Under the pieces are notes generated by a model. It was not told the DNA's origin, ran no database searches, and saw nothing but the letters and a program-made list of their open reading frames with translations. 64,000 nucleotides of DNA from Corynebacterium massiliense DSM 45435. GTDB taxonomy: Bacteria > Actinomycetota > Actinomycetes > Mycobacteriales > Mycobacteriaceae. Each line of letters begins with the position of its first letter. Position 1 is the stretch's first letter. The stretch lies in NCBI RefSeq assembly GCF_028609805.1, contig NZ_CP063189.1:806001-870000 (forward strand), in the 5' to 3' direction. This document shows positions 1 to 15,785 of this stretch, in pieces. The position numbers and the translations under genes were made by a program.

Positions 1-316
1 CGACGAGCCCGAACGCGCCCAGCACCGTGAGGATGGCCGCGAGCGCACTGGGCAGCCCGATCTTCCGCAACCCCTGGGCGACGGGGGAGAGCACAGTGCA
101 CACGATAAGCGCGAGCACGACCGGCAGGATCCCCTGCCAGAAGTTGCCCACCAGCTGGGCGGCCAGGTAGAGCATCGCCCCGATGAGGACGAGCCGCACC
201 GACCACAGGGCGGCGCTTTTGACCACTTCGCCGACGACAACCGAACGATCGACCTGATCGCCCGGCGGGTGTGGCGAGATGGAGTCGAGGTCTTCGTGTT
301 GATTCACGCACACCAT
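1..316 (-). CDS. AI-2E family transporter, N-terminal part (runs off left edge)
   Basis: Only the first ~105 codons are present; the rest lies beyond the left edge. The translated fragment has a short hydrophilic N-terminus rich in Asp, Pro and His, followed by hydrophobic segments (around WSVRLVLIGAMLYLAAQLV and the next one containing ILPVVLALIVCTVLSP) typical of the AI-2E/PerM family of eight-helix membrane proteins. Family members export small molecules or ions; the substrate here cannot be told. In-frame starts are ATG at 316, GTG at 313 and GTG at 307; I give the longest. It is divergent from ychF, so the ~50 bp between them must carry both promoters. Confidence 0.7.
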   Translation of the reverse strand, partial: MVCVNQHEDLDSISPHPPGDQVDRSVVVGEVVKSAALWSVRLVLIGAMLYLAAQLVGNFWQGILPVVLALIVCTVLSPVAQGLRKIGLPSALAAILTVLGAFGLV

Positions 317-368
317 CTTGCCCGAACACCATCTAGCGGGTGAAAAGTGGTGCGTTAGGATTGCCAGC

Positions 369-1457
369 GTGAGTCTTACACTAGGTATTGTCGGTCTGCC
401 CAACGTGGGCAAGTCCACTCTGTTCAACGCCCTGACCCGCAGCGAGATCCTGGCGGCCAACTACCCGTTCGCCACCATCGAGCCCAACGTCGGGCTCGTG
501 GAGCTGCCTGACCCGCGCCTGGATCGCTTGGCGGAGATGTTCAACTCGCAGCGCATCCTCCCGGCGACGGTGTCGTTCGTGGATATTGCGGGCATCGTCA
601 AGGGTGCCTCCGAGGGTGAGGGAATGGGTAACGCCTTCCTGTCCAACATCCGCGAGGCCGATGCGATCTGCCAGGTGGTGCGTGCGTTTAGCGATGACAA
701 CGTCGTCCACGTCGACGGCAAGGTCGACCCGGCGAGCGATATTTCCGTCATCAATACCGAGCTGATCCTCGCGGACCTGCAGACCATCGAAAAGGCTCTG
801 CCCCGCCTGGAAAAGGATGCGAAGAAGAACAAGGACCTAGCGGAGGTCGTCGACGCCGCGAAGAAAGCCCAGGAGGTGCTGGAAGACGATCGCACGCTCT
901 TCGCCGCCTCCAAGGAAGGCGAGGTCGATCTCGGCCTGCTCAAGGAGCTGCACCTGATGACGGCGAAGCCGTTCCTCTACGTCTTCAACTCCGACGAGGA
1001 GGTGCTTACCGACGACGCGAAGAAGGACGAGCTGCGTGAGCTGGTCGCGCCGGCCGAGTGCGTCTTCCTCGATGCCCAGACGGAGACGGAGCTGCTGGAG
1101 CTTGACGATGCCGCCGAGGTCCAAGAACTCCTCGAATCCGTCGGCCAGTCCGAGCCGGGCCTGCAAACGCTGGCGAAGGCCGGCTTTGAGACGCTGGGCC
1201 TGCAGACCTACCTGACTGCCGGCGAGAAGGAAGCCCGCGCCTGGACCATTCACCAGGGTGATACCGCTCCGCAGGCGGCGGGCGTTATCCACTCCGACTT
1301 TGAGAAGGGCTTCATCAAGGCTGAAATCGTCTCCTACGACGACCTTGCCGCCGCCGGGTCCATGGCAGACGCGCGTGCCAACGGCAAGGTCCGCCAAGAG
1401 GGCAAGGACTACGTCATGCAGGACGGCGACATCGTTGAATTCAAATTTAATGTGTAA
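369..1457 (+). CDS. ychF: Redox-regulated ATPase YchF (Obg-type P-loop NTPase)
   Basis: A 362-residue protein, the usual YchF length when the GTG at 369 is used. That start gives the conserved opening MSLTLGIVGLPNVGKST. The P-loop is GLPNVGKST, and the G4-equivalent motif is the YchF-specific NxxE form (NSDE in LYVFNSDEE) rather than NKxD, which is why YchF binds ATP as well as GTP. A TGS domain forms the C-terminus, ending VEFKFNV. YchF associates with ribosomes and is linked to stress and translation control. The last codons (AAA TTT AAT) are more AT-rich than the rest, and a second GC-rich copy of this 3' end lies at 4174-4197, so the present end may have been brought in by the neighbouring insert. 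Confidence 0.95.
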   Translation: MSLTLGIVGLPNVGKSTLFNALTRSEILAANYPFATIEPNVGLVELPDPRLDRLAEMFNSQRILPATVSFVDIAGIVKGASEGEGMGNAFLSNIREADAICQVVRAFSDDNVVHVDGKVDPASDISVINTELILADLQTIEKALPRLEKDAKKNKDLAEVVDAAKKAQEVLEDDRTLFAASKEGEVDLGLLKELHLMTAKPFLYVFNSDEEVLTDDAKKDELRELVAPAECVFLDAQTETELLELDDAAEVQELLESVGQSEPGLQTLAKAGFETLGLQTYLTAGEKEARAWTIHQGDTAPQAAGVIHSDFEKGFIKAEIVSYDDLAAAGSMADARANGKVRQEGKDYVMQDGDIVEFKFNV

Positions 1458-1732
1458 CGCGGAGCGTTAATGACGTTTCGCGTTATTGGGGGGGGGGGAG
1501 GTTGAAGAGCGCTGTCTCTAACTCCGGTTTTCGTTCGGCCTCGGTCCATTCCGCTACCTCGTGTGTAGAATCTGCAAGCGGTATCGGGCCGTTGAACTAT
1601 TAGGTTCACCCACAGTTCCCGTGCCTGCACGCATCGAGAAGGACCAGGTGGTGAACTCGAATGACTCGCCTGGTCCAACGTGTGTGCGCTCGGCGCGTGG
1701 TTTAACTCTTATAAGACTTGCCGGTCACAGCC
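1458..1732. other. Non-coding stretch with poly-G run and inverted repeat
   Basis: No convincing gene. It contains a short inverted repeat just after the ychF stop (TAACGCG at 1455-1461 with CGCGTTA at 1479-1485), an uninterrupted run of 11 G at 1488-1498, and a perfect 8-bp inverted repeat GGACCAGG/CCTGGTCC (1641-1648 and 1669-1676) that could act as a weak terminator for the P-type ATPase gene on the minus strand. No integrase fragment was seen. Confidence 0.6.
1641..1676 (-). terminator. Possible terminator hairpin downstream of the P1B ATPase gene
   Basis: Perfect 8-bp stem GGACCAGG/CCTGGTCC with a 20-nt loop, 56 bp past the ATPase stop. No strong U-run follows, so this is a weak call. 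Confidence 0.35.
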
Positions 1733-3625
1733 TCAGCGTTTCGCTCGTGCAGCCCGCAGGCCGTTCAAGATCACGATGACTTCAGCGACTTCGTGAACCA
1801 ACACGACGGCGGCCAGGCCCAGCACACCGCTGATCGCCAGTGGCATCAACACGATGATGATGGCCAGAGACAGCACGATGTTCTGGTTGATGATCCTGCT
1901 GCCTCGGCGGGCGTGCTGCAGCGCCTGCGGGATCAGCCGGAGGTCGTGGCCAGTGAAGGCGACGTCAGCGGACTCGATCGCGGCGTCAGAGCCGGTTGCT
2001 CCCATCGCAATGCCCACCGTCGCGCCCGCCAGTGCCGGCGCGTCGTTGATGCCGTCGCCGATCATCGCCGTCGGCGTCTTGGAGGAAAATTCGGCGACGA
2101 TGCTTGCCTTGTCCTCAGGGCGCAGCTCGGCGCGCACGTCGTCGATTCCGGCGATTTCAGCCAGCGCCCGGGCGGTGCGAGTGTTGTCGCCGGTGAGCAT
2201 GCTCACTTCCACATCGTTGGCGCGCAGGGTCTGCACGGCTTCGGGAACCTCGGGACGCAGCTCGTCGCGGACACCGATCGCTCCGGCGAGAGCGTCATCG
2301 ACGGTGACTAGGACGCAGGTCTGGCCTTCGGACTCCATGCGCTCAACGTCTGCCTTCAGTGGCCCGGCGTCGATCCACCGGGGGCTGCCCACCAGCACCC
2401 GTCGGCCTTCGACGGTGCCGCTGATGCCGTGCCCGGCTTCCTCGCTGATGTCCTGGGCGGCGGGCGCTTCGGGCCCCGCTGCCGCGATCGCCGCGGCGAG
2501 GGGGTGCGTCGATTGCTGCTCAACTGCCGCCGCGAAAGTAAGCACCTGCGCCCGATCAAACCTGTCTGCCGGGACCACGCCGGTAACCTCGGGCTGGTTG
2601 CGGGTGAGGGTTCCGGTCTTGTCCACCGCCAGGTGACGGATGCCGCCGAGCCGCTCGAACGCCGCGCCAGACTTGATGACCACGCCGAACTGGCTGGCCG
2701 CGCCGATCGCGGCCACGACCGTCAGCGGCACGGAGATTGCCAGCGCGCACGGCGACGCTGCGACCAGAACCACCAACGCACGGGTGATCCACGTCTCGGG
2801 GTCGCCCAGCAGCGAGCCGATCACGCCGACTAGCACCGCCAGGATCATCACCCCGGGCACTAGGGGTTGGGCAATCCGGTCGGCGATCCGGGCGCGGTCG
2901 CCCTTTTCCGCCTGCGCCTGCTCGACCAGGTCCACGAGTGTGGTCAGCGAGTTGTCCGTTCCAGCTGCGGTCGTCTGGACTTCCAGCACACCGGCGGAGT
3001 TGATCGCTCCCGCGGGCACCTCGTCGCCGGGCGCAACCTCCTCCGGAATGGATTCTCCGGTGATCGCTGAGGTGTCAAGGCTGGAGCGCCCAGACCGAAT
3101 GATGCCGTCCGTGGCGATCCGCTCTCCGGGGCGCACGAGCATAAGCTCGCCAGCCGCGAGGTCCTTCGCTGCGACCTCGACCGACGTGCCGTCGCGCAGC
3201 ACCGTCGCGGTCTGCGGTACCAACTTCAACAGTGCCCGCAGTCCGCCCTGCGCCCGGTCCATCGCCTTGTCTTCCAGCGCCTCGGCGATCGAGTACAGGA
3301 ACGCTAGCGCCGCGGCCTCTCCGACGTAACCGAGGATTACCGCGCCGACCGCGCTGATGGTCATCAGCAAACCAATGCCGAGCTTGCGCTTCGTGACAAG
3401 GTTTCGGATCGCGTCGGGCGCGAACGTATACGCCCCTAGCAGCAGGCCGACCCAGAACAGTACTGTCGCGGGTGTCGCTAGCCCGGACCAGCCCAGCGCC
3501 AGGCCTACGCAGAGGGCTACGCCGGAGAAGATCGGCAGTAGCAACTCGGGGTCCTTCCACCATGGCCGATCGAGTTCTTCGATCTCCGTGGCGGGTTCGT
3601 GTTCGCATCCACACGCCGAGCTCAT
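1733..3625 (-). CDS. Heavy-metal-translocating P1B-type ATPase
   Basis: A 630-residue P-type ATPase that would export a soft or borderline divalent metal at the expense of ATP. Visible motifs are TGES (189-192), the intramembrane SPC (291-293), the phosphorylation motif DKTGTLT with Asp335, and GDGIND before the last helices. The SPC form, instead of CPC, and a His-Glu pair in the last helix (about 611-612) set it apart from classic Cu and Zn/Cd pumps and suggest the Co/other-metal branch. The N-terminus has a Cys/His cluster (SSACGCEHE) rather than a full HMA domain. The ATG at 3625 overlaps the regulator's stop (ATGA), so the two are translationally coupled. Metal specificity is inferred from the CmtR-type neighbour (Cd/Pb) and is uncertain. 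Confidence 0.9.
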   Translation of the reverse strand: MSSACGCEHEPATEIEELDRPWWKDPELLLPIFSGVALCVGLALGWSGLATPATVLFWVGLLLGAYTFAPDAIRNLVTKRKLGIGLLMTISAVGAVILGYVGEAAALAFLYSIAEALEDKAMDRAQGGLRALLKLVPQTATVLRDGTSVEVAAKDLAAGELMLVRPGERIATDGIIRSGRSSLDTSAITGESIPEEVAPGDEVPAGAINSAGVLEVQTTAAGTDNSLTTLVDLVEQAQAEKGDRARIADRIAQPLVPGVMILAVLVGVIGSLLGDPETWITRALVVLVAASPCALAISVPLTVVAAIGAASQFGVVIKSGAAFERLGGIRHLAVDKTGTLTRNQPEVTGVVPADRFDRAQVLTFAAAVEQQSTHPLAAAIAAAGPEAPAAQDISEEAGHGISGTVEGRRVLVGSPRWIDAGPLKADVERMESEGQTCVLVTVDDALAGAIGVRDELRPEVPEAVQTLRANDVEVSMLTGDNTRTARALAEIAGIDDVRAELRPEDKASIVAEFSSKTPTAMIGDGINDAPALAGATVGIAMGATGSDAAIESADVAFTGHDLRLIPQALQHARRGSRIINQNIVLSLAIIIVLMPLAISGVLGLAAVVLVHEVAEVIVILNGLRAARAKR

Positions 3626-3981
3626 GCGTCCTCTCCCTTCTCGCCGCAGCCGGGCACCGAGCACTCAGGGTCGATGCACGGGGCGTTTTCGTCGACAGCC
3701 AACGTCGCGTTCACCAGCGCGTTGAGCGCTGCCGCGAGGTGCGGATCGGCGATTTCGTAGCGTGTCTTGCGGCCCTCCGGCTCGGCAACGACGATGCCGC
3801 AGTCACGCAGGCAGGTCAGGTGGTTCGAGACGTTTGAGCGGGTCAGGCCCAGGTCGCGCGAAAGTACGGCCGGGTAGCTCGGGCCGTCGAGTAGTGTCAT
3901 CAGGATTCTGGAACGCGTCGGATCCGCCATGGCCCGGCCGAGCCGGTTCATGACGTCGAGGCGTGAAGCAATAGTCAGCAT
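3622..3981 (-). CDS. cmtR: ArsR/SmtB-family metal-sensing repressor, CmtR type
   Basis: A 119-residue winged-helix repressor. The recognition region reads LTRSNVSNHLTCLRDCG. Cys57, Cys61 and Cys102 fall at exactly the positions of the Cd/Pb ligands known for Mycobacterium tuberculosis CmtR, and extra cysteines follow at 107 and 112. It should bind DNA when metal-free and release it on metal binding, so inducing itself and the overlapping ATPase gene downstream. I chose the ATG at 3981, which gives the family length; it sits at the end of a promoter and operator array made of three direct repeats. The longer upstream reading is not supported. Confidence 0.93.
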   Translation of the reverse strand: MLTIASRLDVMNRLGRAMADPTRSRILMTLLDGPSYPAVLSRDLGLTRSNVSNHLTCLRDCGIVVAEPEGRKTRYEIADPHLAAALNALVNATLAVDENAPCIDPECSVPGCGEKGEDA

Positions 3982-4028
3982 GTGCTGAACAATACATCGT
4001 GTGCTGAACGATTCAAAGTGTGCTGAAC
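3981..4028 (-). promoter_or_regulatory. Putative CmtR operator array: three 10-bp direct repeats
   Basis: The decamer TGTGCTGAAC (plus-strand reading) occurs perfectly three times, starting at 3981, 4000 and 4019, always 19 bp apart. The first copy overlaps the cmtR start codon; the others cover the promoter. The regular helical spacing and position suggest binding sites for the repressor encoded alongside. Confidence 0.65.
3989..4016 (-). promoter_or_regulatory. Predicted cmtR promoter, probably giving a leaderless mRNA
   Basis: On the minus strand, TTGAAT (4016-4011) and TATTGT (3994-3989) are separated by 16 bp and resemble a sigma-A promoter. The expected transcription start, 7 or so bases on, falls at or within a base or two of the ATG at 3981, so there is no room for a ribosome binding site. 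Confidence 0.5.
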
Positions 4029-4173
4029 TGACAGTTACGCGAAGGTCCTGCGACCTGCAAGAATTAGTCGATGGGATAGCAGATGACTGATCCTTTGTGG
4101 TTCGGCTGCCACCCAACGCGGGAGCGACGTGGGCGGCGAGGTTCTCGAGAAAGTAACTTTGCAACTACATACC

Positions 4174-4197
4174 GTGGACTTCAAGTTCAACGTGTAA
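4174..4197 (+). pseudogene. Second copy of the ychF 3' end (remnant)
   Basis: These 24 bp read Val-Asp-Phe-Lys-Phe-Asn-Val-stop. They match the last codons of ychF (1434-1457: Val-Glu-Phe-Lys-Phe-Asn-Val-stop) at 19 of 24 bases; four of the five differences are synonymous third-position changes and one swaps Glu for Asp. A good terminator hairpin follows 24 bp later, whereas none follows the intact ychF gene. It looks like the displaced original end of ychF, left on the far side of the metal-resistance insert. Confidence 0.6.
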
Positions 4198-4220
4198 GTA
4201 TCCCGCCGGTCCTTCCCGGG

Positions 4221-4260
4221 CCCCAGCTGCGCATATGGTGTGTGTGGCTGGGGTCTTTTC
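4221..4260 (+). terminator. Rho-independent terminator, likely the original ychF terminator
   Basis: Stem CCCCAGC (4221-4227) pairs with GCTGGGG (4247-4253) and is followed by TCTTTT. It sits just after the ychF 3' remnant and not after any complete gene. Confidence 0.65.
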
Positions 4261-5399
4261 GTGTTTTGCGGATTGCGTGACGGCGGTTTGTAACGAAACG
4301 AATACGTGTTCGAGGTGGGGTTTGACTTCGGTTCTGGAACCGTTATGGTGGGTGGTGTGTAGAACACGTTAGCGAATACTTTTCGGGGGAGGGGCCCAAT
4401 GGGTCCGTATTACACGGTGTCCACACCAGGAAACGACATAGCCACAACCGCGACACAACTACGCCAGTTCGAATACTTCATGCACCGTGAGTGCTTGCCG
4501 GAACCAGACGATGATTTCGATCTGGCCTGCACCCGCCTGGCCGGGTTGACGGGAAAATCACCAACCCGGGTGGCCAATATCTTCATGGCACTGTTCCGCC
4601 TGGATGAGCTACCCGGCCTGCGGGAGGTGCATGAGCGGTTGTTCCACCTGGATTTCTCCCGCCTGATCGTTATCGACCAGGTGTTGTGCAAACTCGGCAC
4701 TCCAGATGAGGAAGCACTAGCGCGTATCGATGCCGCCCTAGTCAAGTATTTGACCCCCACCCGGGCGGGCCAAGTACTGCCGTCGGTGCGCAACTTACGC
4801 CGCAAACTCAACGCCTTAGTCGCTGCCGAAGACCCAGAACTTGCCGACGCGGTAAGCACAGAGGCAGAAAAGGAAGCTGAGAAACGTCGGAAGCGTAAAG
4901 GCCGGTATGACTGGTCGAGTCTTCCCGGCGGGGTGGGGTGTATCAGTGTTGAATACGACACGGAGACTGCCGCCCAGATCAATGGGGTGATCCGCCGGGT
5001 TGCCGACGAGTACGGGGTCAGCGCTTCGGAAGCGTTCGCGATGTTGGTGCTGACTGATATCAACCGGGATGTGGATGTGACACTGAATGTGTTTCAGGCG
5101 GCGGATCTTGCGCATGCGCCGGTGTTTGTCGAAGGTACTGGCTGGACCGACGCCGAAACAGGTGCCGAGCTTGCCGGGAAAGCATCCCGGCGTAAAGACA
5201 TGAATGCGGCCGCCTGGATGGAAAGCACAAACTACTCCACCCCGGACAGGTTGAAGGCGTATCTCAACGGCAGGGACGGTACCTGCCGGTATCCGGGGTG
5301 TTGCCTGCCGGCGTATCGGTGTCAGAAGGATCATTGTGTGGATTTTGCGGACGGTGGGCCGACGGCAGCGTGGAATCTGGTGAATCTGTGCCAGCATCA

Positions 5400-5407
5400 T
5401 CACAACA
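5400..5407 (+). repeat. Left target-site duplication of the IS256-family element
   Basis: TCACAACA lies directly before the left inverted repeat and is repeated perfectly at 6849-6856. Eight bp is the usual IS256-family duplication, so the insertion is probably recent. Confidence 0.92.
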
Positions 5408-6848
5408 GAGGGTGTCAGGAAGTTTGTGTGTGAGGCTCTGATCTAGAAGGAGTTTCACCGATAATGACTACGGTGTCACCGAAGAAAAACCATGACCCGG
5501 CAAAGGTCAATGAGATCAGCGAGAAGCTGATGGAAAATCCTGAGCTCGCCAGCTTGATCAGCGAGCTGTCGGCTTCCGCTGATGATGCAAGCGAGCTGGT
5601 CAAAGGCCTGCTACAGGCATCAATCAACGCTGGTCTGCAGGCGGAGATGGATGCGCATTTGGGCTATAGCCATTCTGACCGCAAGACCAAAGCCCAAGTC
5701 GAATCCGCACAGGGCAACAATCACCGCAATGGGTCGTACACCAAGACCGTCAATTCTGGCTACGGCGCGGTGGAAGTGACCGTGCCCAGGGACCGTGCCG
5801 GCACCTTTACTCCCCGGATGGTGCCCAAGGGCGCACGCCGACTCACAGAACTCGACGACATGATCGTCTCGCTATACGCCGGCGGGATGACAGTGCGCGA
5901 TATCCAGCATCACCTCGCGACCACGCTCGGGGTGGATATGAGCCCGGATACGATCAGCACCATTACCGATGCGGTGTTAGACGAGGTCATGATCTGGCAA
6001 AACCGCCAGCTCGACGAGTTCTACCCGGTGATCTTCCTCGACGCGCTACGCGTGAAAATCCGTGACGGCCACCGCGTGGTCAACAAGTCCTGCTATATGG
6101 CGGTTGGCGTCGACATGGACGGCATCAAGCACATCCTGGGATTGTGGATCGCTGAAAATGAAGGTGCCGCATTCTGGGCATCGGTCTGCGCGGATCTGGC
6201 CAACCGCGGTGTCCAGGACGTGTTCATTGTCTGCTGCGACGGGCTCAAAGGCCTGCCGGAAGCCGTGGAAGCCACCTGGCCGAATTCCATGGTGCAGACC
6301 TGTATCGTGCACCTGATTCGGGCTGCGAACCGGTGGGTGTCCTACCAAGACCGCAAAGGGGTCTCCCGGGCGCTGCGTGAGGTCTACACGGCCGCAAACG
6401 AGGACACCGCCCGTGCCGCCTTGGATGCGTTCGAAGCCAGTGAACTGGGCCGGAAATACCCGCAATCGGTCAAAGTCTGGCGCGACGCTTGGGAGCGGTT
6501 CGTGCCGTTTCTACAGTTCCCGCCGGCGGCACGCCGGGTGCTCTACACCACCAATTCGATCGAGTCGCTGAATGCTGAACTGCGTAAAGCTACCCGTAAC
6601 CGCGGCCAGTTCCCGAACGATACCGCGGCGTTGAAAACGCTGTGGCTGATGATCTGCAACATCGAAGACAAGCGCGCCGCCCAGCGAGCCAAGAAAGCGA
6701 AGCGCGATATCGAATGCAACGGCTATATTGAAGGAGCGAAAGCCACCGGGTGGAAACAAGCCATCAACCAACTAGCCGTGGCTTACCCCGACCGATTCGC
6801 GGACTACTTGTAAACCAAACCCCCGCACACAAAGAATCGGACACTCTC
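5408..6848 (+). mobile_element. Complete IS256-family insertion sequence (1441 bp)
   Basis: The ends form an imperfect inverted repeat: GAGGGTGTC...TTTGTGTGTG at the left and GAGAGTGTC...TTTGTGTGCG (reverse complement) at the right, matching at about 20 of 28 positions. Perfect 8-bp target duplications flank it, and a full-length transposase fills it. Everything needed for transposition appears intact. Confidence 0.95.
5464..6813 (+). CDS. IS256-family (mutator-type) transposase
   Basis: A 449-residue DDE transposase that cuts and joins the IS ends. Catalytic acidic residues can be placed in IFLDALRVK, VCCDGLKGL and TTNSIESLNAELR; the last is the signature around the catalytic Glu of mutator-type enzymes. 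The ATG at 5464 is preceded by AGAAGGAG at a normal spacing. The frame is uninterrupted and of normal family length, so the element is likely still active. It lies in the same direction as the HNH gene it interrupts. Confidence 0.96.
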   Translation: MTTVSPKKNHDPAKVNEISEKLMENPELASLISELSASADDASELVKGLLQASINAGLQAEMDAHLGYSHSDRKTKAQVESAQGNNHRNGSYTKTVNSGYGAVEVTVPRDRAGTFTPRMVPKGARRLTELDDMIVSLYAGGMTVRDIQHHLATTLGVDMSPDTISTITDAVLDEVMIWQNRQLDEFYPVIFLDALRVKIRDGHRVVNKSCYMAVGVDMDGIKHILGLWIAENEGAAFWASVCADLANRGVQDVFIVCCDGLKGLPEAVEATWPNSMVQTCIVHLIRAANRWVSYQDRKGVSRALREVYTAANEDTARAALDAFEASELGRKYPQSVKVWRDAWERFVPFLQFPPAARRVLYTTNSIESLNAELRKATRNRGQFPNDTAALKTLWLMICNIEDKRAAQRAKKAKRDIECNGYIEGAKATGWKQAINQLAVAYPDRFADYL

Positions 6849-6856
6849 TCACAACA
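6849..6856 (+). repeat. Right target-site duplication of the IS256-family element
   Basis: TCACAACA, identical to 5400-5407, directly after the right inverted repeat. Confidence 0.92.
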
Positions 6857-7167
6857 TCAAAACCGACAAACGGGCCCGCTACATCCTCGATCCCGCCACG
6901 GGTGATGTGGTGTGGCTATTTACCGACGGCACCTGGCAGTCCACTACTGCTGCCGGCCCGCTGGCACCCGAGACGTGCAACTGGTTGCAGACGGTCGACC
7001 AAGCGATTGCTACCCGCCGGGCCAACGCCCGCGAACGCGCCCTTAACACCAAACCAGAACCCGACACCGAACCAACCAACACCAACACCCACCCCGACAC
7101 CGACCCCGACTACGAAGAGGAGCCGCCGCTCTAATCACAGCTCGGTCGGCGGTAAGTTTGGGATCCA

Positions 7168-7689
7168 ATGTCTCCCGATAACATCCTGTTTCGACTGCCG
7201 GATGCGGAAGCGACCCGGATCCGTGAGGTGTTCGATGCCCTCGCGGCCGCGGGCTTTCCTCGCCAAGAGCAGCCCCCGCATGTCACCGTCACATTCGCAC
7301 CAGAAATGGGCGAGCAAGCGGTTCGGCGGGCGGGAGAGCTTTTGGCGCCACTCACGCCAGTCGAGTTCCGGCGCACCGGCGTGGCCGTATTTGGGACAAA
7401 GAGTAAGCAAACTGTCACGTGGCTACTCGACGCGCCCCACGACGTGCAGGCGGCCGCCCGAGAAGTAAGCGCCGCGAACCCGGATGGGCGTGGCCCGGAG
7501 TGGACACCACATCTGACGGTGGGGCTGCGATTGCCGCGCCGGATGGTGGGCGACTACATCGCGGCGTTGGACGAAATAACGCCGCCGACACTGAAGACCT
7601 TTACGGGTCAACGAGTAGTCTGGCGGCGGCCGCGGTTAGGAGATGAAGTCGAGCTAGAACACGCTACTGGGCGTCCTCGTCCTCGGTGA
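7168..7689 (+). CDS. 2H phosphoesterase, 2'-5' RNA ligase / cyclic phosphodiesterase family
   Basis: A 173-residue protein with the two HxT motifs of the 2H superfamily, PHVTVTF (His38) and PHLTVGL (His115), spaced as in ThpR/LigT proteins. Such enzymes hydrolyse 2',3'-cyclic phosphates or reversibly join 2'-5' RNA ends; the true substrate is often unknown. It starts 33 bp after the end of the broken HNH gene and reads in the same direction. Its last 26 bp overlap, tail to tail, a small acidic gene on the other strand. Confidence 0.8.
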   Translation: MSPDNILFRLPDAEATRIREVFDALAAAGFPRQEQPPHVTVTFAPEMGEQAVRRAGELLAPLTPVEFRRTGVAVFGTKSKQTVTWLLDAPHDVQAAAREVSAANPDGRGPEWTPHLTVGLRLPRRMVGDYIAALDEITPPTLKTFTGQRVVWRRPRLGDEVELEHATGRPRPR

Positions 7690-7819
7690 CTTCCTCGCCG
7701 TATCCCACCTGGGAGCCGGTGTCCTGTGCCATCTGGTCCTCGTCGCGGTCGATGGGCTCGTTGGTGCTGTCGGCGGAATCGTAGTTCGGATCGGTCGGGT
7801 CGTTGTTCATACCATCCAT
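7664..7819 (-). CDS. Small acidic hypothetical protein (51 aa)
   Basis: The minus strand encodes 51 residues beginning MDGMNNDPTDPNYDSADS and ending TEDEDAQ. Around a third are Asp or Glu, with almost no hydrophobic residues, so it is probably soluble and disordered. A second possible start is the ATG at 7810. It overlaps the end of the 2H phosphoesterase gene by 26 bp. No function can be assigned. The coherent composition, good in-frame start and clean stop make it more likely than the competing frames on this strand, which give Arg/Gly-rich nonsense. Confidence 0.6.
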   Translation of the reverse strand: MDGMNNDPTDPNYDSADSTNEPIDRDEDQMAQDTGSQVGYGEEVTEDEDAQ

Positions 7820-7846
7820 GTCGCCCCATCGTAGCGATGACGCCGG

Positions 7847-8494
7847 CTACTGCAATGCCCCGAAGTTGCCGTTCGTGGACACCTGATCAGTGGAGAAAAG
7901 TACGTCAAGTGCGGCAGCGACTCCGCGGTTGATAGTGTCCTGAGCCAGCGGCGTCCCGGTTGTCTCTGACGTCTCGTGGCCCAAAGCCTGCGGCACGTGA
8001 ATGAACCCGGACAGAACGTCGGTGCCAGCGGTTTCATCCAACGCGGCATACATCACCGCATTGCACACGAACGTGCCGGCGGTATAGGACAGGGAGCCGG
8101 GGACATCGGCATCGGCAAGCGCTTGCACCAGACGTTTGACCGGCAGGGTGCTGAAGTAGGCGGCGGGGGAGGGGGCATCGGCAAGCGCGGTGTCCTGGGG
8201 CTGGTAGCCGGAATTGTCGGGGATGCGGGCCTCGGCGAGGTTGATGGCCACGCGCTCGACGGACAGGGTGCTGCGCGGTTCGGCAAGGCCCAGGCTGACG
8301 ATGGCGTCGGGGGCGTGGTCGTGGATGAGCTCGCGAATGCGGCGGGTGGCGGCGCGGTACTCGACGGGCAAAATGGCCGTGATGACGTCGCTGCGCTCTG
8401 CGAGCGATTCCACCGCCCCGATGGTGGGGTTGAACGTGCTCTGGCCAAACGGGCCGAATCCGGTGAGGAGAATGCGGTGTGATGGCGCGGTCAT
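7847..8494 (-). CDS. pcp: Pyrrolidone-carboxylate (pyroglutamyl) peptidase I
   Basis: A 215-residue cytosolic cysteine peptidase of family C15 that removes N-terminal pyroglutamate from peptides. The start region ILLTGFGPFG is the family hallmark. The catalytic residues are visible as Glu in VERVAINLAEARIPDN, Cys in GTFVCNAVMY and His in SGFIHVPQ. The ATG at 8494 gives the usual length; in-frame upstream codons add only an unconserved tail. It is divergent from the HhH-type protein gene with 31 bp between starts. Confidence 0.93.
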   Translation of the reverse strand: MTAPSHRILLTGFGPFGQSTFNPTIGAVESLAERSDVITAILPVEYRAATRRIRELIHDHAPDAIVSLGLAEPRSTLSVERVAINLAEARIPDNSGYQPQDTALADAPSPAAYFSTLPVKRLVQALADADVPGSLSYTAGTFVCNAVMYAALDETAGTDVLSGFIHVPQALGHETSETTGTPLAQDTINRGVAAALDVLFSTDQVSTNGNFGALQ

Positions 8495-8525
8495 CTTGTC
8501 GAGCCTAGGCGCTACGGTGGTCCGT

Positions 8526-9113
8526 ATGAGCACGATTGATGAGGTAATTGAGCGCTATCCCACCACTTTCGCCGAGGAGGCTGGGATCACCGTGGCCAAC
8601 GAGCCGGCGGCCCTCTACCAGGTCTTCGTGCTGGCAAACATGCAGGCTAAGCCGATTAATGCCAGCGTTGCGGCGCGGGCGGCGAAGGGGCTGTTCGAGG
8701 CGGGCATCGACACCCCGCAGGCGATGGTGGAGGCGCCGCGGTCGCGGCTGATTTCCATCTTCGGCGCCCACAAGTACGCCCGCTACGACGAAAGCACCGC
8801 CACCCGGCTGCAGGACGGTGCCCGCCAGTTGCTCGATGACTACGGCGGGGACCTGCGGGTGCTTTACGATGCCGCCACCAGCCGCACCGACCTGAAGAAG
8901 CGGCTGCAGGCCTTTCCCGGATTTGGGCCCGCGGGAGTGGATATCTTCCTGCGCGAGGTACAGGGAGTGTGGCCGGAAATCGCCCCGGTGGTGGACAAGA
9001 AGGCGCGGCAAGGCGCGGAGAAGCTGGGGATCGATATCGATGACGTTATGCGCGAGCCGGCGGAGTGTCCGCGCGTGGCAGGGGCGCTCGTGCGCTACGC
9101 GCTGGAGAAGTAG
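8526..9113 (+). CDS. HhH-type protein related to endonuclease III, catalytic Lys not evident
   Basis: 195 residues, mostly helical, with a helix-hairpin-helix segment reading FPGFGPAGVDIFLREVQG. The scaffold recalls base-excision repair enzymes of the HhH-GPD class, but where endonuclease III has the catalytic Lys (PGVGRKTA) this protein has PGFGPAGV, and there is no C-terminal Fe-S cluster. It may therefore be a monofunctional glycosylase or a DNA-binding relative. It is 12 bp upstream of a mismatch-specific uracil glycosylase gene in the same direction, which supports a DNA-repair role. The ATG at 8526 gives the compact family form. Confidence 0.65.
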   Translation: MSTIDEVIERYPTTFAEEAGITVANEPAALYQVFVLANMQAKPINASVAARAAKGLFEAGIDTPQAMVEAPRSRLISIFGAHKYARYDESTATRLQDGARQLLDDYGGDLRVLYDAATSRTDLKKRLQAFPGFGPAGVDIFLREVQGVWPEIAPVVDKKARQGAEKLGIDIDDVMREPAECPRVAGALVRYALEK

Positions 9114-9125
9114 GGAAGGTGCTTA

Positions 9126-9689
9126 GTGCGATTTAGCCAGGAAGAACTGCAAAAGTACCGCGATAAGACGGTGGAGGATCTGTTGCCAGATCCGCTCAAC
9201 CTGCTGTTCGTGGGCATCAACCCGGGGCTTTGGACCGCGGCGACCGGGGCCCACTTCGCACGGCCCGGCAACCGCTTTTACCCGGCTTTGTACAAGGCCG
9301 GGATCACCTCGCACCAGTTCGATGCGTCCGCCGGCTACACGGAAGCGGACTTAGCGGAGCTGCACCACAAAGGCATCGGGGTGTCCAATCTGGTGCCGCG
9401 GGCGTCCGCGCGTGCCGATGAGCTGACCACCGCAGAGCTCCGGGAGGCGCCAGAGCGGTTGGCGCGCATCGTGGACGAGCACCACCCAAAGGTGATCGCG
9501 GTGCTGGGAATCACCTCGTACCGGCAGGCTTTCAAGAAACCGAAGGCCACCACGGGCGAGCAGGAATCGCCTTGGGAGGGCACGCGGCTGTTTGTCGCGC
9601 CAAACCCGAGCGGGTTGAACGCGCACGCGTCCGTGGAGGATCACGCGGCGGCCTACCGCGAAGTGGCCCGTGCCGCAGGCATTGTGTGA
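9126..9689 (+). CDS. mug: G/U (T) mismatch-specific DNA glycosylase, MUG family
   Basis: 187 residues with the MUG/TDG active-site signature GINPGLWTAATGAHF, where Asn activates the water, and the second motif region NPSGLNAH near residue 168. Enzymes of this family excise uracil or ethenocytosine opposite G. The GTG at 9126 follows the upstream HhH gene by 12 bp, so the two are likely co-transcribed as a repair pair. Length is slightly above the E. coli protein (168 residues). Confidence 0.9.
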   Translation: MRFSQEELQKYRDKTVEDLLPDPLNLLFVGINPGLWTAATGAHFARPGNRFYPALYKAGITSHQFDASAGYTEADLAELHHKGIGVSNLVPRASARADELTTAELREAPERLARIVDEHHPKVIAVLGITSYRQAFKKPKATTGEQESPWEGTRLFVAPNPSGLNAHASVEDHAAAYREVARAAGIV

Positions 9690-9707
9690 CGTATACGGTG
9701 GGAGGGC

Positions 9708-10907
9708 ATGGGCGATAAGAACACTGTGAACGACATCGTTTCCCGCGCCGACGAGCTGTTGGAGTGGCAGGAAGACTTCTACAAAGACCTCCACAGCCAC
9801 CCCGAGCTGTCGATGGAGGAAGAGCGCACCCGGGGTGTGATTGCGGACAAGCTGGATAGCCTGGGGATTTCCAGTCAGGAGATCGGCGGCGGTGTTGTTG
9901 GCACCGTGGAAAATGGCGAGGGGCCGACGGTGATGCTCCGCGCCGACTTCGACGGCTTGCCGGTGGCAGAAGAGACCGGCCTCGACTACGCCGCCGACCC
10001 GGACGCGGGCGTAATGCACGCGTGCGGCCACGACACCCACGTCACCGCCCTGATGGGCATGGCGCAGTTGATGGTCGAGAATAAAGACGCGTGGTCGGGC
10101 ACGCTGCACCTGCTGTTTCAGCCGGGAGAGGAGACCGGCGCGGGTGCGAAAGCCATGCTTGACGATGCCCTCGTGGACAAGGTCTCTGCCCCCGACGTGG
10201 TGCTCGGTCAGCACGTCTTCGGCATGGAGGTACCCGCCGGCAGCCTCGCTATTGCCTCCGGCAGCGTTATGTCCGCCGCAGTGAGCATGCGCATCAAGGT
10301 CTATGGCGATGGCTCGCACGGCTCGATGCCGCACCTCGGCGTGGACCCGGTGGTGCTGGCCAGCAGCATCGTCACGCGCTTGCAGACGGTGATCTCTCGG
10401 GAGATCGCACCGGGTGATTTCGGCGTCATCACGGTCGGCAGCATTTCTGCTGGCAAGAAAGCCAACGTCATCGCGGATTCGGCGACGCTGGAAATCAACA
10501 TCCGCGCCTACGATGAGGACAAGCGCGACTTCTTGGTCGACGCCGTGCACCGAGTCGTGGACGGGGAGTGCGCCATCTCGCGCAGCCCGAAGGAACCGGA
10601 GTACGAGCACTACGATCACTTCCCGCTGACGGTCAACGACGAGGACACGACGGAGAAGGTCAAGGCGGCACTGGTGGACCACTTCGGCGAGGACAAGGTG
10701 TTCCACACCGACCCGGTCACCGCGTCCGAGGACTTCTCGCACGTGCCCGACGCCTACGACGCCCCGTATTGCTACTGGTTCTTCGGCGGGCTGCCGGAAG
10801 GCGAGTCCATCCCGAACCACAGCCCGAAGTTTGCGCCGGTCATGCAGCCAACGCTGCGGACGGGCACCGAAGCTTTGGTCGCTGCCGCCTGCGCGTTTCT
10901 TGGGTAG
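9708..10907 (+). CDS. M20 family amidohydrolase / aminoacylase-like metallopeptidase
   Basis: 399 residues with the dinuclear zinc-site motifs of the M20D group: the first Asp in LRADFDGLP, ACGHDTH, PGEETGAG and a C-terminal His in IPNHSPKF. Related enzymes hydrolyse N-acyl amino acids such as hippurate or indole-amino-acid conjugates. Corynebacteria use an M20 aminoacylase to release odour acids from acyl-glutamine, but this sequence alone does not show that substrate. No signal peptide. It starts 18 bp after mug and ends 10 bp before a CYP152-type P450, so substrate coupling (release of a fatty acid and then its oxidation) is a possible but untested idea. Confidence 0.88.
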   Translation: MGDKNTVNDIVSRADELLEWQEDFYKDLHSHPELSMEEERTRGVIADKLDSLGISSQEIGGGVVGTVENGEGPTVMLRADFDGLPVAEETGLDYAADPDAGVMHACGHDTHVTALMGMAQLMVENKDAWSGTLHLLFQPGEETGAGAKAMLDDALVDKVSAPDVVLGQHVFGMEVPAGSLAIASGSVMSAAVSMRIKVYGDGSHGSMPHLGVDPVVLASSIVTRLQTVISREIAPGDFGVITVGSISAGKKANVIADSATLEINIRAYDEDKRDFLVDAVHRVVDGECAISRSPKEPEYEHYDHFPLTVNDEDTTEKVKAALVDHFGEDKVFHTDPVTASEDFSHVPDAYDAPYCYWFFGGLPEGESIPNHSPKFAPVMQPTLRTGTEALVAAACAFLG

Positions 10908-10917
10908 CGTGGGTCAC

Positions 10918-12192
10918 ATGGCTATCAAATTTCCCCGCGTTAAAGGCGAACAGTCCCTGAAAATTTTGACCAAGGGTTACCTCATGCCGTCGGTCCTGCG
11001 GAAGCAGGCCGGTTTGAGTCCCGATTCCCACCGCCCGTTTACCACCCGTCTGCTGGGCAAGGGCGCGGTCATCGTGCGTGGCGATGAGGGCGTCGACTTC
11101 TTCTACGATTCCGACAACATCGAGCGCGACGGCGCGATGCCGAAGTTCGTGCAGTTCCCGCTGTTCGGCAACGGGGCGGTGCACACCCTCGATGGCGAGG
11201 ATCACCGCGTGCGCAAGAACGCGATGGCCGATATGGCCTACGAAGACGACCGCGTCGCGCAGTTCGAGCCGCTGGTGGCCGAGGAAGTCGACCGCATGTA
11301 CCGCCAGTGGGCCAGCCAGCACCAGCCCGGCGACGTGCACGCGGACATGGCACTGGCGTTCGGCCGCGCTGCGTTCCGCTGGGCGGGCATTCGGGTCTCG
11401 GACAAGGAGACTGACCGCGTCGTGCGCCAGCTCAACCGCCTGCTGGACACGTTTGGCAAGGTCACCTCGACGCCGATCGCGATTTTCGAGCGCTTCCGCA
11501 CCAACAAGTTCTACCGCGAGTACATCGAAAAGGCCCGCGCCGGCGAGGTAGAGGTGCCGCAGGATTCCGTGGTTGAGCACATGGCCAACCTGCGGGATAA
11601 GAACGGCGAGCTTGTCGATGCCCAGGTTGCCGGCATCGAGCTGCAGAACCTCACCCGCCCGACCATCGCCGTGGGACGCTTCGCTGCCTTCGCTGCCGTG
11701 GCGCTGGTGGAACACCCAGAGTGGGCAGAGCGCATCCGCAACGGCGAGGGCCACGAAGCGGTCGCCTTCGCGCAGGAAACGCGCCGCGCGTTCCCGTTCG
11801 TGCCGATGCTCCCCGGGTTTGCCCGCAAGGACGCCGAGGTGTCCGGCTGCCCGGTCCACAAGGGCCAGCGCGTGATCCTGGACATCGTGGGCACGCTGAA
11901 TTCCCCGAAGGAATGGAAGACGCCGGGGTCGTTCGACCCGGAGCGTTTCATGGACTACCCGGCCCAGAAGGACGCGGAATCCATCACGTCTTTCATTCCG
12001 CAGGGCGGCGCCGATGTCCGCAGCGGCCACCGCTGCCCAGGCGAGAAGATCGCGGTTGCCGCACTGTCCTCTGCGGTGGAGATGCTTTCCCGTCCTGACG
12101 TGCAGATTTCCACCGACCGCGAGGACACCACCTTCGACTGGACGAAGATTCTCACCCGCCCGGATACGGGCGTTCGCGTGACGGTCCGGTAA
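10918..12192 (+). CDS. CYP152-family P450 peroxygenase (fatty acid hydroxylase/decarboxylase type)
   Basis: 424 residues. The heme-thiolate loop is FIPQGGADVRSGHRCPGE with Cys373, and the I-helix carries the Arg-Pro pair (R247, P248 in NLTRPTIAVGR) that binds the fatty acid carboxylate in CYP152 enzymes, replacing the acid-alcohol pair of ordinary P450s. Such enzymes use H2O2 directly to hydroxylate or decarboxylate fatty acids and need no reductase partner; none is seen nearby. The position equivalent to residue 85 of the family is His (H89 in GAVHTLDGED), as in the alkene-forming OleT, rather than the Gln of P450-BSbeta. Soluble, no signal. Followed directly by an MFS transporter gene. Confidence 0.9.
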   Translation: MAIKFPRVKGEQSLKILTKGYLMPSVLRKQAGLSPDSHRPFTTRLLGKGAVIVRGDEGVDFFYDSDNIERDGAMPKFVQFPLFGNGAVHTLDGEDHRVRKNAMADMAYEDDRVAQFEPLVAEEVDRMYRQWASQHQPGDVHADMALAFGRAAFRWAGIRVSDKETDRVVRQLNRLLDTFGKVTSTPIAIFERFRTNKFYREYIEKARAGEVEVPQDSVVEHMANLRDKNGELVDAQVAGIELQNLTRPTIAVGRFAAFAAVALVEHPEWAERIRNGEGHEAVAFAQETRRAFPFVPMLPGFARKDAEVSGCPVHKGQRVILDIVGTLNSPKEWKTPGSFDPERFMDYPAQKDAESITSFIPQGGADVRSGHRCPGEKIAVAALSSAVEMLSRPDVQISTDREDTTFDWTKILTRPDTGVRVTVR

Positions 12193-12205
12193 CTGCTGTC
12201 GTTTG

Positions 12206-12275
12206 CACGACGCCCTCCGTGCGGAGAATAATGGCCTCCGCATTAGAGAACTCAACAAGAAAAGAGGGCGTCGTG
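12206..12275 (+). promoter_or_regulatory. Perfect 12-bp inverted repeat across the MFS gene start
   Basis: CACGACGCCCTC (12206-12217) and GAGGGCGTCGTG (12264-12275) are perfect complements separated by 46 bp. The right arm contains the purine-rich segment and the alternative GTG start (12273) of the transporter gene. It could be a regulatory RNA fold that hides this start, or an operator pair. Confidence 0.45.
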
Positions 12276-13469
12276 ACGGAGGCTGCGGCCAGAGACGAAA
12301 AGCTCATGACCCCGCGCTTCTTGCTTGCGTGGGTCATTAATTTCTCCCAGTATCTGGGTTTTTACATCCTCATTACCACCATGGCGGCGTATGCCGCCCA
12401 CCAATTCGGCGCGAACGAGGCGATGAGCGGCCTGGCGGCCAGCTCCTTCGTCATCGGCGCCACTCTTGCCCGAGTGTTCTCGGGCTTTACTGTTGACACC
12501 ATCGGGATCAAAAAGTCGCTGTACGCCTCGGTCATTCTGGTGGTTGTTGCGACGGCTCTCTATTCCGCTGCGCATTCCCTAGGCGTGCTCATCGCGGTGC
12601 GTGCCATCCACGGCATCGGCTACGCCTTCGCCAGCACGTCCATTATGGCTGTCGCACAGACGATCATTCCGCCCAAGCGGCGCGCGGAGGGGACCGGTTA
12701 CTTCGCGTTGGGTACCACCGCCGCGACCGCGGTCGGCCCCGGGCTGGGCATCATGATCGCCGACAACTGGGGCGATGAGGGCCTGCCGCTCGCGGCGCTC
12801 ATCGTGTCCGCAACTTCCCTCGCGCTTGCTTTCGTACTGCGCGTCCCGGCGTCGGCCGCGGACGAAGGATCGGAGCGCCCGAAGTTCAGCCTTAGCTCGC
12901 TGATCAGCCCGCGGGTCGTGCCCATCGCGTCGGTCATGCTGCTGGCTGGCGTGACCTACTCGGGCATCATCACGTTCTTGAACGAATTTTCCGCCGACCG
13001 CGGCCTATCCTCCCAAACCGCGGCGTGGTTCTTCCTTGCCTACGCGCTAGTGATGCTCATCTCGCGCTTCTTCCTCGGCCGTCTGCAGGATCGCCGCGGC
13101 GACAACGCGGTCTTCTACCCAGGGCTGGTCTCTTTCGCGGCCGGACTGATCTTGTTGGCGGTGGCGACCAGCCAGTGGCAGGTCATCCTGGCGGGTGTGT
13201 TTGTCGGTGGCGGCTACGGCACGCTCATGCCGGCCGCGCAGGCCATCTCGGTGCGGCTGGTTCCTGCGAAGAAGATGGGTACGGGAATTTCGACGCTGTT
13301 TTTGCTTCTCGATGTCGGCATCGGCTTCGGGCCGATCCTTTTGGGGCTCATCGTCTCGGCGGCCGGGTACAGCGCGATGTACTGGGCGCTGACCGGCGTC
13401 ATCGTGTTGGCGGCCGTGCTCTACCTCGTCGTTCACGGGCGCAAATCCGTGGCCCAAGCCGGCCACTAG
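12231..13469 (+). CDS. Major facilitator superfamily exporter
   Basis: About 412 residues with twelve predicted membrane helices and the MFS motif A-like loop between helices 2 and 3 (GFTVDTIGIKKSL) and again in the second half (GRLQDRRGDNAVF). The profile is that of drug/metabolite efflux proteins of the DHA1 type. Two starts are plausible: ATG at 12231, with CGGAGA upstream, and GTG at 12273, which lies in the right arm of a 12-bp inverted repeat. It begins 38 bp after the CYP152-type P450 gene, so it might export an oxidised fatty acid product, but this is only inference from position. Confidence 0.85.
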   Translation: MASALENSTRKEGVVTEAAARDEKLMTPRFLLAWVINFSQYLGFYILITTMAAYAAHQFGANEAMSGLAASSFVIGATLARVFSGFTVDTIGIKKSLYASVILVVVATALYSAAHSLGVLIAVRAIHGIGYAFASTSIMAVAQTIIPPKRRAEGTGYFALGTTAATAVGPGLGIMIADNWGDEGLPLAALIVSATSLALAFVLRVPASAADEGSERPKFSLSSLISPRVVPIASVMLLAGVTYSGIITFLNEFSADRGLSSQTAAWFFLAYALVMLISRFFLGRLQDRRGDNAVFYPGLVSFAAGLILLAVATSQWQVILAGVFVGGGYGTLMPAAQAISVRLVPAKKMGTGISTLFLLLDVGIGFGPILLGLIVSAAGYSAMYWALTGVIVLAAVLYLVVHGRKSVAQAGH

Positions 13470-13523
13470 TCGTTACCATCGGCGGGTGGACGATACATAG
13501 ACGACGCAAAAGGAGCGTGCATT

Positions 13524-14057
13524 ATGGCTGACCTGTCCAACAAGACCATTGCCGTTATCGCCACCGACGGTTTCGAGGATTCGGAGCTGACCTCCCCGGT
13601 GGAGGCCGTGAAGGACGCCGGTGCGACCGTGAAGGTGCTGTCCACCAAGGGCGGTACCATCGAGGGCAAGAATGGCACCAAGGTGGATGTCGATACCACG
13701 ACGGGCCTGGCCAAGGACTCCGACTTCGACGGCATTATCCTGCCGGGCGGTACGACCAACGCCGACACGATTCGCCTGGACGACGACGCCGTGGCCATCG
13801 TGAAGAAGCACATGGAGGCGGATCTCCCGCTCGGTGCCATTTGCCACGGTGCGTGGATCTTGACCGACGCGGACGTGCTGCGCGGCCGGACGATTACGTC
13901 CTTCCCGTCCCTGAAGACCGACCTGCGCAACGCGGGCGCGACCTGGGTCGATGAGGAAGTCGTGACCGATCAGGGCCTGGTGAGCTCCCGCACGCCGGAC
14001 GACCTGCCGGCCTTCAACTCCAAGATCGTCGAGGAGTTCGCTGAGGGGCAGCACTAA
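13524..14057 (+). CDS. DJ-1/PfpI family protein (type 1 glutamine amidotransferase fold)
   Basis: 177 residues with the nucleophile elbow AICHGAW (Cys107) and the conserved Glu18 in GFEDSE that tunes it. PfpI/YhbO proteins act as stress proteins, described as deglycases or proteases; activity cannot be assigned from sequence. An AGGAG sits before the ATG. A strong terminator follows the stop, so it is probably a single-gene unit. Next downstream is a PRC-barrel stress protein, consistent with a general stress neighbourhood. Confidence 0.9.
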   Translation: MADLSNKTIAVIATDGFEDSELTSPVEAVKDAGATVKVLSTKGGTIEGKNGTKVDVDTTTGLAKDSDFDGIILPGGTTNADTIRLDDDAVAIVKKHMEADLPLGAICHGAWILTDADVLRGRTITSFPSLKTDLRNAGATWVDEEVVTDQGLVSSRTPDDLPAFNSKIVEEFAEGQH

Positions 14058-14074
14058 ACCTTCCTTCGCCGAGA

Positions 14075-14110
14075 CCCCGCTAACCGATTTTGGTTGGCGG
14101 GGATTTTTTT
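14075..14110 (+). terminator. Rho-independent terminator after the PfpI-family gene
   Basis: CCCCGCTAACC (14075-14085) pairs with GGTTGGCGGGG (14092-14102), one G-T wobble, followed by a run of seven T (14104-14110). Confidence 0.9.
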
Positions 14111-14149
14111 ACGTTTTCGGGCACCGGTGCGGGACGGATGTGGGTAGTA

Positions 14150-14178
14150 TTGACACTCGTTACAATTTCGTTATTAAC
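14150..14178 (+). promoter_or_regulatory. Predicted sigma-A-type promoter for the PRC-barrel gene
   Basis: TTGACA at 14150-14155 and ATTAAC at 14173-14178 with a 17-bp spacer. Transcripts from here would carry a leader of about 225 nt that includes the G-rich motif at 14189-14224. The -35 box is perfect, the -10 box is weak. Confidence 0.45.
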
Positions 14179-14188
14179 GTGTTGAGCT

Positions 14189-14224
14189 GGGGAGATAGGG
14201 GTGATTTGGGGGTAGTGGCGGGGG
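14189..14224 (+). other. G-quadruplex-type motif in the leader region
   Basis: Four runs of G (4, 4, 5 and 5 long, at 14189, 14198, 14208 and 14220) separated by loops of 5, 6 and 7 bases fit the standard quadruplex rule on the coding strand. The rest of the 300-bp gap between the upstream terminator and the gene holds no credible coding sequence. Confidence 0.6.
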
Positions 14225-14411
14225 TCAATTTGCTTTCCCCGGATAGCGTTCCGAGCACTTTCCGTATGGTGGGGTCTCACACGCCTCAGGCGGGTGAAGG
14301 GCGGTGGAGATTCCGCACTGGAATTTCTGCCGCTAAGCAGCCCGCAGCACTCGCAAGTTGAGTGTCCGCGTGCTGCACATACACACCATCATGCGAAAGG
14401 AAAGCAGAAGA

Positions 14412-15254: not shown

Positions 15255-15275
15255 AAACTAGCGGCGCTAGCGCGT

Positions 15276-15306
15276 AAAGCCCCGGGCCATACGGCTCGGG
15301 GCTTTT
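15276..15306 (+). terminator. Rho-independent terminator after the PRC-barrel gene
   Basis: AAAGCCCCGGGCC pairs with GGCTCGGGGCTTT around a 4-nt loop, ending in TTTT. A-rich bases before the stem also give a U-run on the other strand, so it may serve the convergent rhodanese gene too. Confidence 0.85.
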
Positions 15307-15314
15307 CCCGTTTT

Positions 15315-15728: not shown

Positions 15729-15785
15729 GGCGGGTTAGGGCAGCCTTTCTAGTGAAAAAGCCGGTGAGCCCGTAGTTTAGGGGAT

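Follow-up and report, generated by a model that had tools for sequence, protein, structure and literature searches.

Comparison of the ychF locus with described systems

Staphylococcal cassette chromosome (SCC) elements are described as inserting at the 3' end of rlmH via the ccr serine recombinases, with variant direct repeats at their flanks, and as stacking into composite islands (PMC7029136). Actinobacterial integrative elements are described with serine recombinases that integrate into protein genes (PMC3218068), and Streptococcus pneumoniae prophages with integration in the ychF region (PMC8637289, PMC10383233). Here we analyzed a 64,000-nucleotide stretch of Corynebacterium massiliense DSM 45435 (contig NZ_CP063189.1, positions 806,001 to 870,000 of the forward strand), hereafter the window, in which a predicted metal-resistance segment lies behind ychF. 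The sequences establish discrete cassettes at this gene, their borders, their recurrence in varied orders and hosts, and a recombinase gene beside ychF elsewhere; on this evidence, a tandem cassette family occurs behind ychF in Corynebacterium and relatives. At a probability of roughly 0.8, window positions 1434 to 4175 are a mobile cassette of this family, likely inserted by a large serine recombinase that would act in trans.

The locus resembles SCC, including SCCmec and the arginine catabolic mobile element (ACME) at rlmH (orfX), in its candidate large serine recombinase, the 3' end of a conserved gene, variant short direct repeats, and tandem elements. As in SCC, the repeats flanking the insertions at ychF preserve the coding end of the target gene, and the elements form tandem composite arrays. 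However, the target is ychF and not rlmH (orfX), the host phylum is different, and most array units are 0.6 to 5 kb with one to three genes. The recombinase scored far under the cut-offs of the Ccr models (CcrA, 26.7 bits against 700; CcrB, 72.1 against 900; CcrC, 30.5 against 900). Because of the different target gene and these low scores, the ychF system is not SCC.

Small interchangeable cassettes, adaptive cargo, a fixed site, and reshuffled orders are features shared with integrons. Unlike integrons, the candidate enzyme is of the serine type (PF00239 plus PF07508) rather than the tyrosine recombinase IntI, and the platform is the end of a housekeeping gene. Elements of the actinomycete integrative and conjugative element (AICE) type differ in that the small units at the ychF site have no recombinase, and ychF is not named as a target in the available part of the source. 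The S. pneumoniae prophage site is intergenic and upstream of ychF, not at its 3' end, and the available text describes no arrays. Among titles and abstract openings, with subscription papers and preprints excluded, we found no description of integration at ychF in actinobacteria.

A predicted metal-resistance cassette between two ychF tails

The ychF gene occupies positions 369 to 1457 on the forward strand (TIGR00092, 435.6 bits; cut-off, 279.2). The cassette provides the last 22 to 24 bases of the gene (starting at 1434 or 1436), and the remainder is host DNA. The cassette-borne tail at the left junction (1434 to 1457, forward strand) is AT-rich and encodes VEFKFNV and a stop, while the displaced native tail at the right junction, a motif match at 4174 to 4197 (forward strand), encodes VDFKFNV and a stop. 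The first-pass annotation of the window had reported this repeat, and we confirmed it: the two tails share 19 of 24 bases, and of the five changes four are synonymous and one replaces Glu with Asp. VDFKFNV is also the YchF end in the relatives of highest identity (88%; G200, G073, and G208), one of which, G208, carries a second tail copy as well. A strong terminator-like hairpin with a T run (4218 to 4256, forward strand) follows the distal tail and is probably the native ychF terminator. It had been singled out earlier as the only good terminator. The one other site in our scan was a weak 5-pair stem on the opposite strand; by itself the scan proves nothing, because shuffled sequences average 2.0 sites. 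The evidence supports the earlier proposal of an insertion at the 3' end of ychF, in which the incoming segment supplied a replacement end and displaced the native one.

A repeat this short (24 bp) and imperfect might also arise by chance or through local duplication of a small piece of ychF. The degenerate tail motif, at up to three mismatches, occurs at only two sites in the window, with 0 expected from 100 shuffles, and at zero mismatches it occurs at only two sites in the entire 2.24-Mb genome. A reversed control motif was found in none of 242 Corynebacterium genomes. The entire segment also recurs elsewhere, and this recurrence refutes chance or local duplication, to which we assign practically no probability.

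The two GT dinucleotides that open the tails are 2740 bp apart and delimit a discrete cassette with cmtR and a P1B ATPase gene; the GT at 1434-1435 would be the crossover dinucleotide of the left junction. Both genes lie on the reverse strand: a heavy-metal P-type ATPase of the cadmium family at 1733 to 3625 (TIGR01512, 497.3 bits, cut-off 313.5; TIGR01525, 558.4 bits, cut-off 346.25) and CmtR, a Cd(II)/Pb(II)-sensing repressor, at 3622 to 3981 (NF047906, 177.2 bits; cut-off, 150). The predicted role of this cargo is export and sensing of metals of the cadmium/lead type. These two are the genuine genes of the cassette, and among its scanned open reading frames (ORFs) we found no recombinase.

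Conserved sequences mark both cassette ends on the forward strand. A left-end motif beginning GCGTTAATGACG (1464 to 1491) was present, at up to three mismatches, in 57 of the 242 genus genomes, and its reversed control in none. The right half-site, AGTAACTTTGCAACTACATACC, lies immediately 5' of the GT (4152 to 4173); it is common to the cassettes of the window's family, F0, and a looser form stands at the right ends of other families. Near the left end is a run of 11 G residues (1490 to 1500), which is shorter in the other copies seen.

Recurrence of the cmt cassette in other hosts

Cassette identity greatly exceeded that of the neighboring ychF gene in cross-host comparisons with the window. 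In C. haemomassiliense, the cmt cassette was 99.7% identical at a different array position, against 81.3% for ychF DNA. The corresponding cassette and ychF identities were 97.0% and 81.5% for HMSC05H05, 96.5% and 79.0% for C. jeikeium, and 96.1% and 79.8% for C. meitnerae. Other genera gave 95.0% and 68.6% (Pseudoglutamicibacter cumminsii) and 90.8% and 67.7% (Helcobacillus); in Gleimia europaea, the compared stretch held no cmt match. The left junction, tail, and flank of the window were letter-identical behind ychF in G104 and behind a cassette of family F4 in G158, G217, and G161. Of 60 other genomes, 11 have a CmtR and ATPase pair of at least 93% protein identity downstream of ychF; the contig of one more, G108, terminates inside the ATPase gene.

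A plasmid origin of the segment was considered and rejected. In the plasmid collection, 34 records matched the cmt segment. Two covered at least 80% of it, at 76 to 77% identity (Cryobacterium and Paenarthrobacter), and none exceeded 87% among the best 20 of the 34. Best pieces at 95 to 99% identity came from 11 of the 34 records, all among the 14 lower-ranked.

The first-pass annotation had suggested that the segment may be an old island or a passenger of a deleted one. The 99.7% identity between species instead indicates a small recurring cassette that moved recently, and a single old island with a deleted integrase is rejected by the recurrence and the identity levels.

Tandem cassette arrays behind ychF

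YchF was present in 201 of 201 genomes searched, and the exact tail motif in 158 of the 242 Corynebacterium genomes, with two or more copies in 62. The extra copies were placed in 31 of these 62: of the 33 multicopy genomes among the matches listed, G130 and G021 were set aside because each has a tail on a separate contig. In these 31 genomes, all 75 extra tails lay downstream of ychF on the same strand, at 1.2 to 53.8 kb, and 68 were within 30 kb. Among the other 29 multicopy genomes, copies at places remote from ychF occur in some, including G036, G051, and G141. All seven fetched genomes in which YchF ends in KIGG had no tail site behind ychF.

We assembled 90 sequences: the window, the ychF-downstream DNA of 70 other genomes, and 19 named loci that the recombinase search had yielded; each stretch was picked for lying either behind ychF or around the recombinase. 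Counts by entry are slightly inflated, because at least one pair (G055 and C. meitnerae L181) is the same contig. A matrix built from exact tail copies found 185 forward and 0 reverse sites in 1,448,688 bases at threshold 2, and 212 forward and 10 reverse sites at threshold -4. Cutting at the tail GT yielded 119 complete segments in 34 families, although two junctions scoring 2 to 3 (G032 and Helcobacillus) may be false. VEFKFNV and a stop were encoded at 116 junctions, and the families recurred in differing orders and with differing neighbors.

The cargo of these families is varied. F0 had 21 copies in 20 entries, mostly of 2735 to 2740 or 2906 to 2907 bp. F1 carries the mercury reductase MerA (TIGR02053, 553.4 bits; cut-off, 454.45) and is 3.2 kb in most of its 19 entries. 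F2, of about 2.34 kb in 15 entries, carries an Erm methyltransferase (NF000499, 293.8 bits with a cut-off of 212, a score taken on the homologue in the G038 island). The F3 copy scanned encodes HigA and ArfB, F5 a copper ATPase and a multicopper oxidase, and F12 a DUF488 protein. F8 and F9 proteins matched the PADLOC candidate defense models PDC-S56 (825 bits) and PDC-S58 (144 bits), and F7 gave a weak STAND match of 26.8 bits, below the Pfam cut-off of 27.1. The large proteins matching candidate anti-phage defense models lie at L035:3475-8031 (F7), L036:13932-15500 (F9), and L036:16273-18330 (F8). Copies of F2 were seen in G158, L172, and others, and behind ychF also in Gleimia, Helcobacillus, and Pseudoglutamicibacter. 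The Erm-type cassette was 100% identical between Gleimia and Helcobacillus, against 67.0% for ychF.

Genomes without cmtR and the ATPase gene do carry distal tails, an observation listed at first pass as a refutation of the insertion. The reading stands nonetheless, because those tails are the ends of other cassettes. The suggestion that ychF is a site-specific target held but was incomplete, since the site is also the base of multicassette arrays.

Borders at the GT and precise presence and absence

We compared copies of the same family that have different neighbors. Among 224 pairs with different left neighbors, identity left of the GT was mostly 0.24 to 0.65, the exceptions being positions -5 and -20 (1.00), -21 (0.89), and -8 (0.74), and identity was 0.91 to 1.00 from +18 onward. 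At the right border (288 pairs with different right neighbors), identity was 0.75 to 1.00 up to the GT and 0.25 to 0.52 from +23. In F0, F1, F2, and F4, third-codon positions of the tail (+2 to +17) varied more than the cassette body.

Three genome pairs differ by the presence or absence of one cassette, and each breaks at the tail GT. F2 lies between the flanks in G076 only and not in G127; the ychF side aligned over 8246 bases at 99.1% without gaps, and the far side over 1424 bases at 98.5%. In G104, the cmt cassette stands between ychF and F4, whereas in G189 ychF directly abuts F4, with 97.8% identity over the next 4577 aligned bases. Thus G189 joins ychF to the cassette that lies behind cmt in G104, a counterpart in kind to the insert-free junction that the first-pass annotation had expected in related strains. 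Finally, G054 has F1 between ychF and F0 and G079 is without F1, with 98.6% identity over 11,648 aligned bases and 12 gap columns.

One family retains features of a larger element. F2 matches both ends of a 15.5-kb recombinase island in G038 (L044): 1.87 kb on the right at 98.8% identity, and 0.3 kb on the left, a stretch that includes the start of the recombinase gene, at about 80%. Judging by these matches, F2 is a deletion derivative of a recombinase island, with both ends kept and the middle lost. Such an origin, together with the divergent tails inside families, would fit a scenario in which the cassettes are immobile decayed recombinase islands, inserted serially and spread with the chromosome by homologous recombination. 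However, the cmt cassette occurs in varied orders, with varied neighbors, and in other genera at 90.8 to 99.7% DNA identity, and the three presence/absence pairs break at the GT rather than in flanking homology. We consider decay and chromosomal spread unlikely and favor cassettes that are themselves mobile.

A large serine recombinase at the ychF site

The candidate enzyme, P0001 (503 amino acids), contains Resolvase (PF00239, 9e-31) and Recombinase (PF07508, 1.3e-13) domains, as in large serine recombinases, with no match to a zinc-ribbon model. It had matches in 39 of the 242 genus genomes at an E value of 1e-40. A close form (at least 98% identical) was present in 13 Corynebacterium genomes, split in pieces in two and with an internal stop in one. 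In 8 of the 13 it lies 25 to 27 bp behind ychF, the other five being G238, G036, G051, G141, and G078. Larger islands with a recombinase at the ychF site, anticipated by the first-pass annotation, exist. For C. tuscaniense (G238) and C. striatum (G051), the recombinase occupies other sites, which have the same GT-tail border. Two records, L165 (C. striatum; 9956) and L182 (9957), share one non-ychF location for the recombinase island or F2, and the ORF preceding it is presumably zeta-toxin-like.

The gene also stands directly behind ychF in records of Actinotignum (2), Varibaculum (2), and Arcanobacterium (1), whose YchF proteins are 63 to 69% identical. Between Actinotignum schaalii and Corynebacterium sp. 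MSK008, the recombinase gene is 100% identical, against 67.5% for ychF. There are also 13 divergent full-length relatives (41 to 61% identical). Ten of them are located downstream of ychF at no more than 10 kb, that of G107 on the opposite strand; of the remainder, that of G065 is 49 kb away and those of G052 and G198 are on other contigs. Two or more tails were present in 12 of the 13 close-form genomes and in 50 of the 229 others (Fisher p = 3.5e-7, uncorrected for kinship). In the G038 island, there was no transfer gene among the 7 ORFs scanned of 15 (at least 100 amino acids).

Tyrosine integrases leave near-identical direct repeats such as these tails, and exchanges seem to fall anywhere within the tails, so that a different enzyme, either a tyrosine integrase or RecA acting at the 24-bp repeats, might move the cassettes. 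Against this, the recombinase gene at the site is of the serine type, and its divergent relatives are also near ychF. The interior sites are symmetric about the GT as well: over 91 distinct interior junctions, the GT was the best symmetry center, at 0.423 (mean over centers 0.255, standard deviation 0.061). With no systematic search of the arrays for tyrosine recombinases made, we regard another enzyme as very improbable and retain the serine recombinase as the likely agent.

Proposed mechanism and significance

We read the following steps from the anatomy of the loci. A circular cassette would carry a site composed of the right half-site (4152-4173), the GT, and the ychF-like tail (1434-1457). 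The recombinase would join this circle to ychF at the GT within its seventh-last codon, a valine codon, whereupon the cassette tail would become the new ychF end and the old tail would shift to the far end. YchF would keep its C terminus because the cassette tail becomes the new end of the gene, and the landing site would be rebuilt because its right half is the tail itself. Since the new ychF-tail junction resembles the old one, the site would be reusable and arrays could grow. Small cassettes without a recombinase would rely on the enzyme from a co-resident island, and F2 may be a model for their origin, by joining of the island ends and deletion of the middle.

Several observations weigh against this reading. 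Within families, third-codon positions of the tail vary (identity, 0.50 to 0.93), as if tails were exchanged or converted separately from cassettes. Because this variation exceeds that of the body, the tail would not always be inherited with its cassette, and a two-base crossover alone does not explain exchange within the tail. At 55 distinct ychF junctions, the best symmetry center was 13 bases to the left and the GT ranked fourth. At E 1e-40, the recombinase finds no counterpart in the window's genome, so the agent must have been present and then lost, or have acted from elsewhere. The plasmid and phage collections yielded no carrier: there was no plasmid-collection match to the recombinase at E 1e-40, and 105 phage records matched, with identity below 60% among the 20 of 105 matches listed.

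A broader proposal, which we judge evenly balanced, is that the ychF end could be an integron-like gene-capture platform run by a large serine recombinase, each insertion repairing an essential gene, rebuilding the site, and keeping the host receptive to a further cassette, with the set circulating among actinobacterial families that inhabit people and animals. If so, it would be a common unnamed route by which Corynebacterium and its neighbors trade metal-resistance, antibiotic-resistance, and candidate defense genes, with a predictable address (the ychF end) and a predictable signature. It would also give another phylum its own, independent counterpart of SCC and offer a testable example of array growth at a conserved gene that stays unbroken. 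The tail signature would give an easy rule to delimit such cassettes in any genome.

Neighboring features and a possible second element type

Other candidates for target or element parts were rejected. No tRNA gene that could be an integration target lies within window positions 1 to 20000. Between the displaced tail and an RNA ligase gene, within 4399-6813, are an IS256 transposase gene and an ORF without a Pfam or NCBIfam match, which we take to encode a 13E12-type HNH endonuclease. Both were excluded as parts of the element, being located past the distal tail. The 2'-5' RNA ligase was likewise rejected as a constant right neighbor, as the retrieved stretch holds a relative in 13 of 60 other genomes, at variable distance.

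In two genomes, G094 (L051) and G020 (L195), YchF ends in VEFRTGLTSGSKK rather than VEFKFNV, and a divergent recombinase (52 to 53% identical) lies 7 to 8 kb downstream of ychF. These loci perhaps represent a second type of element that rewrites the YchF end.

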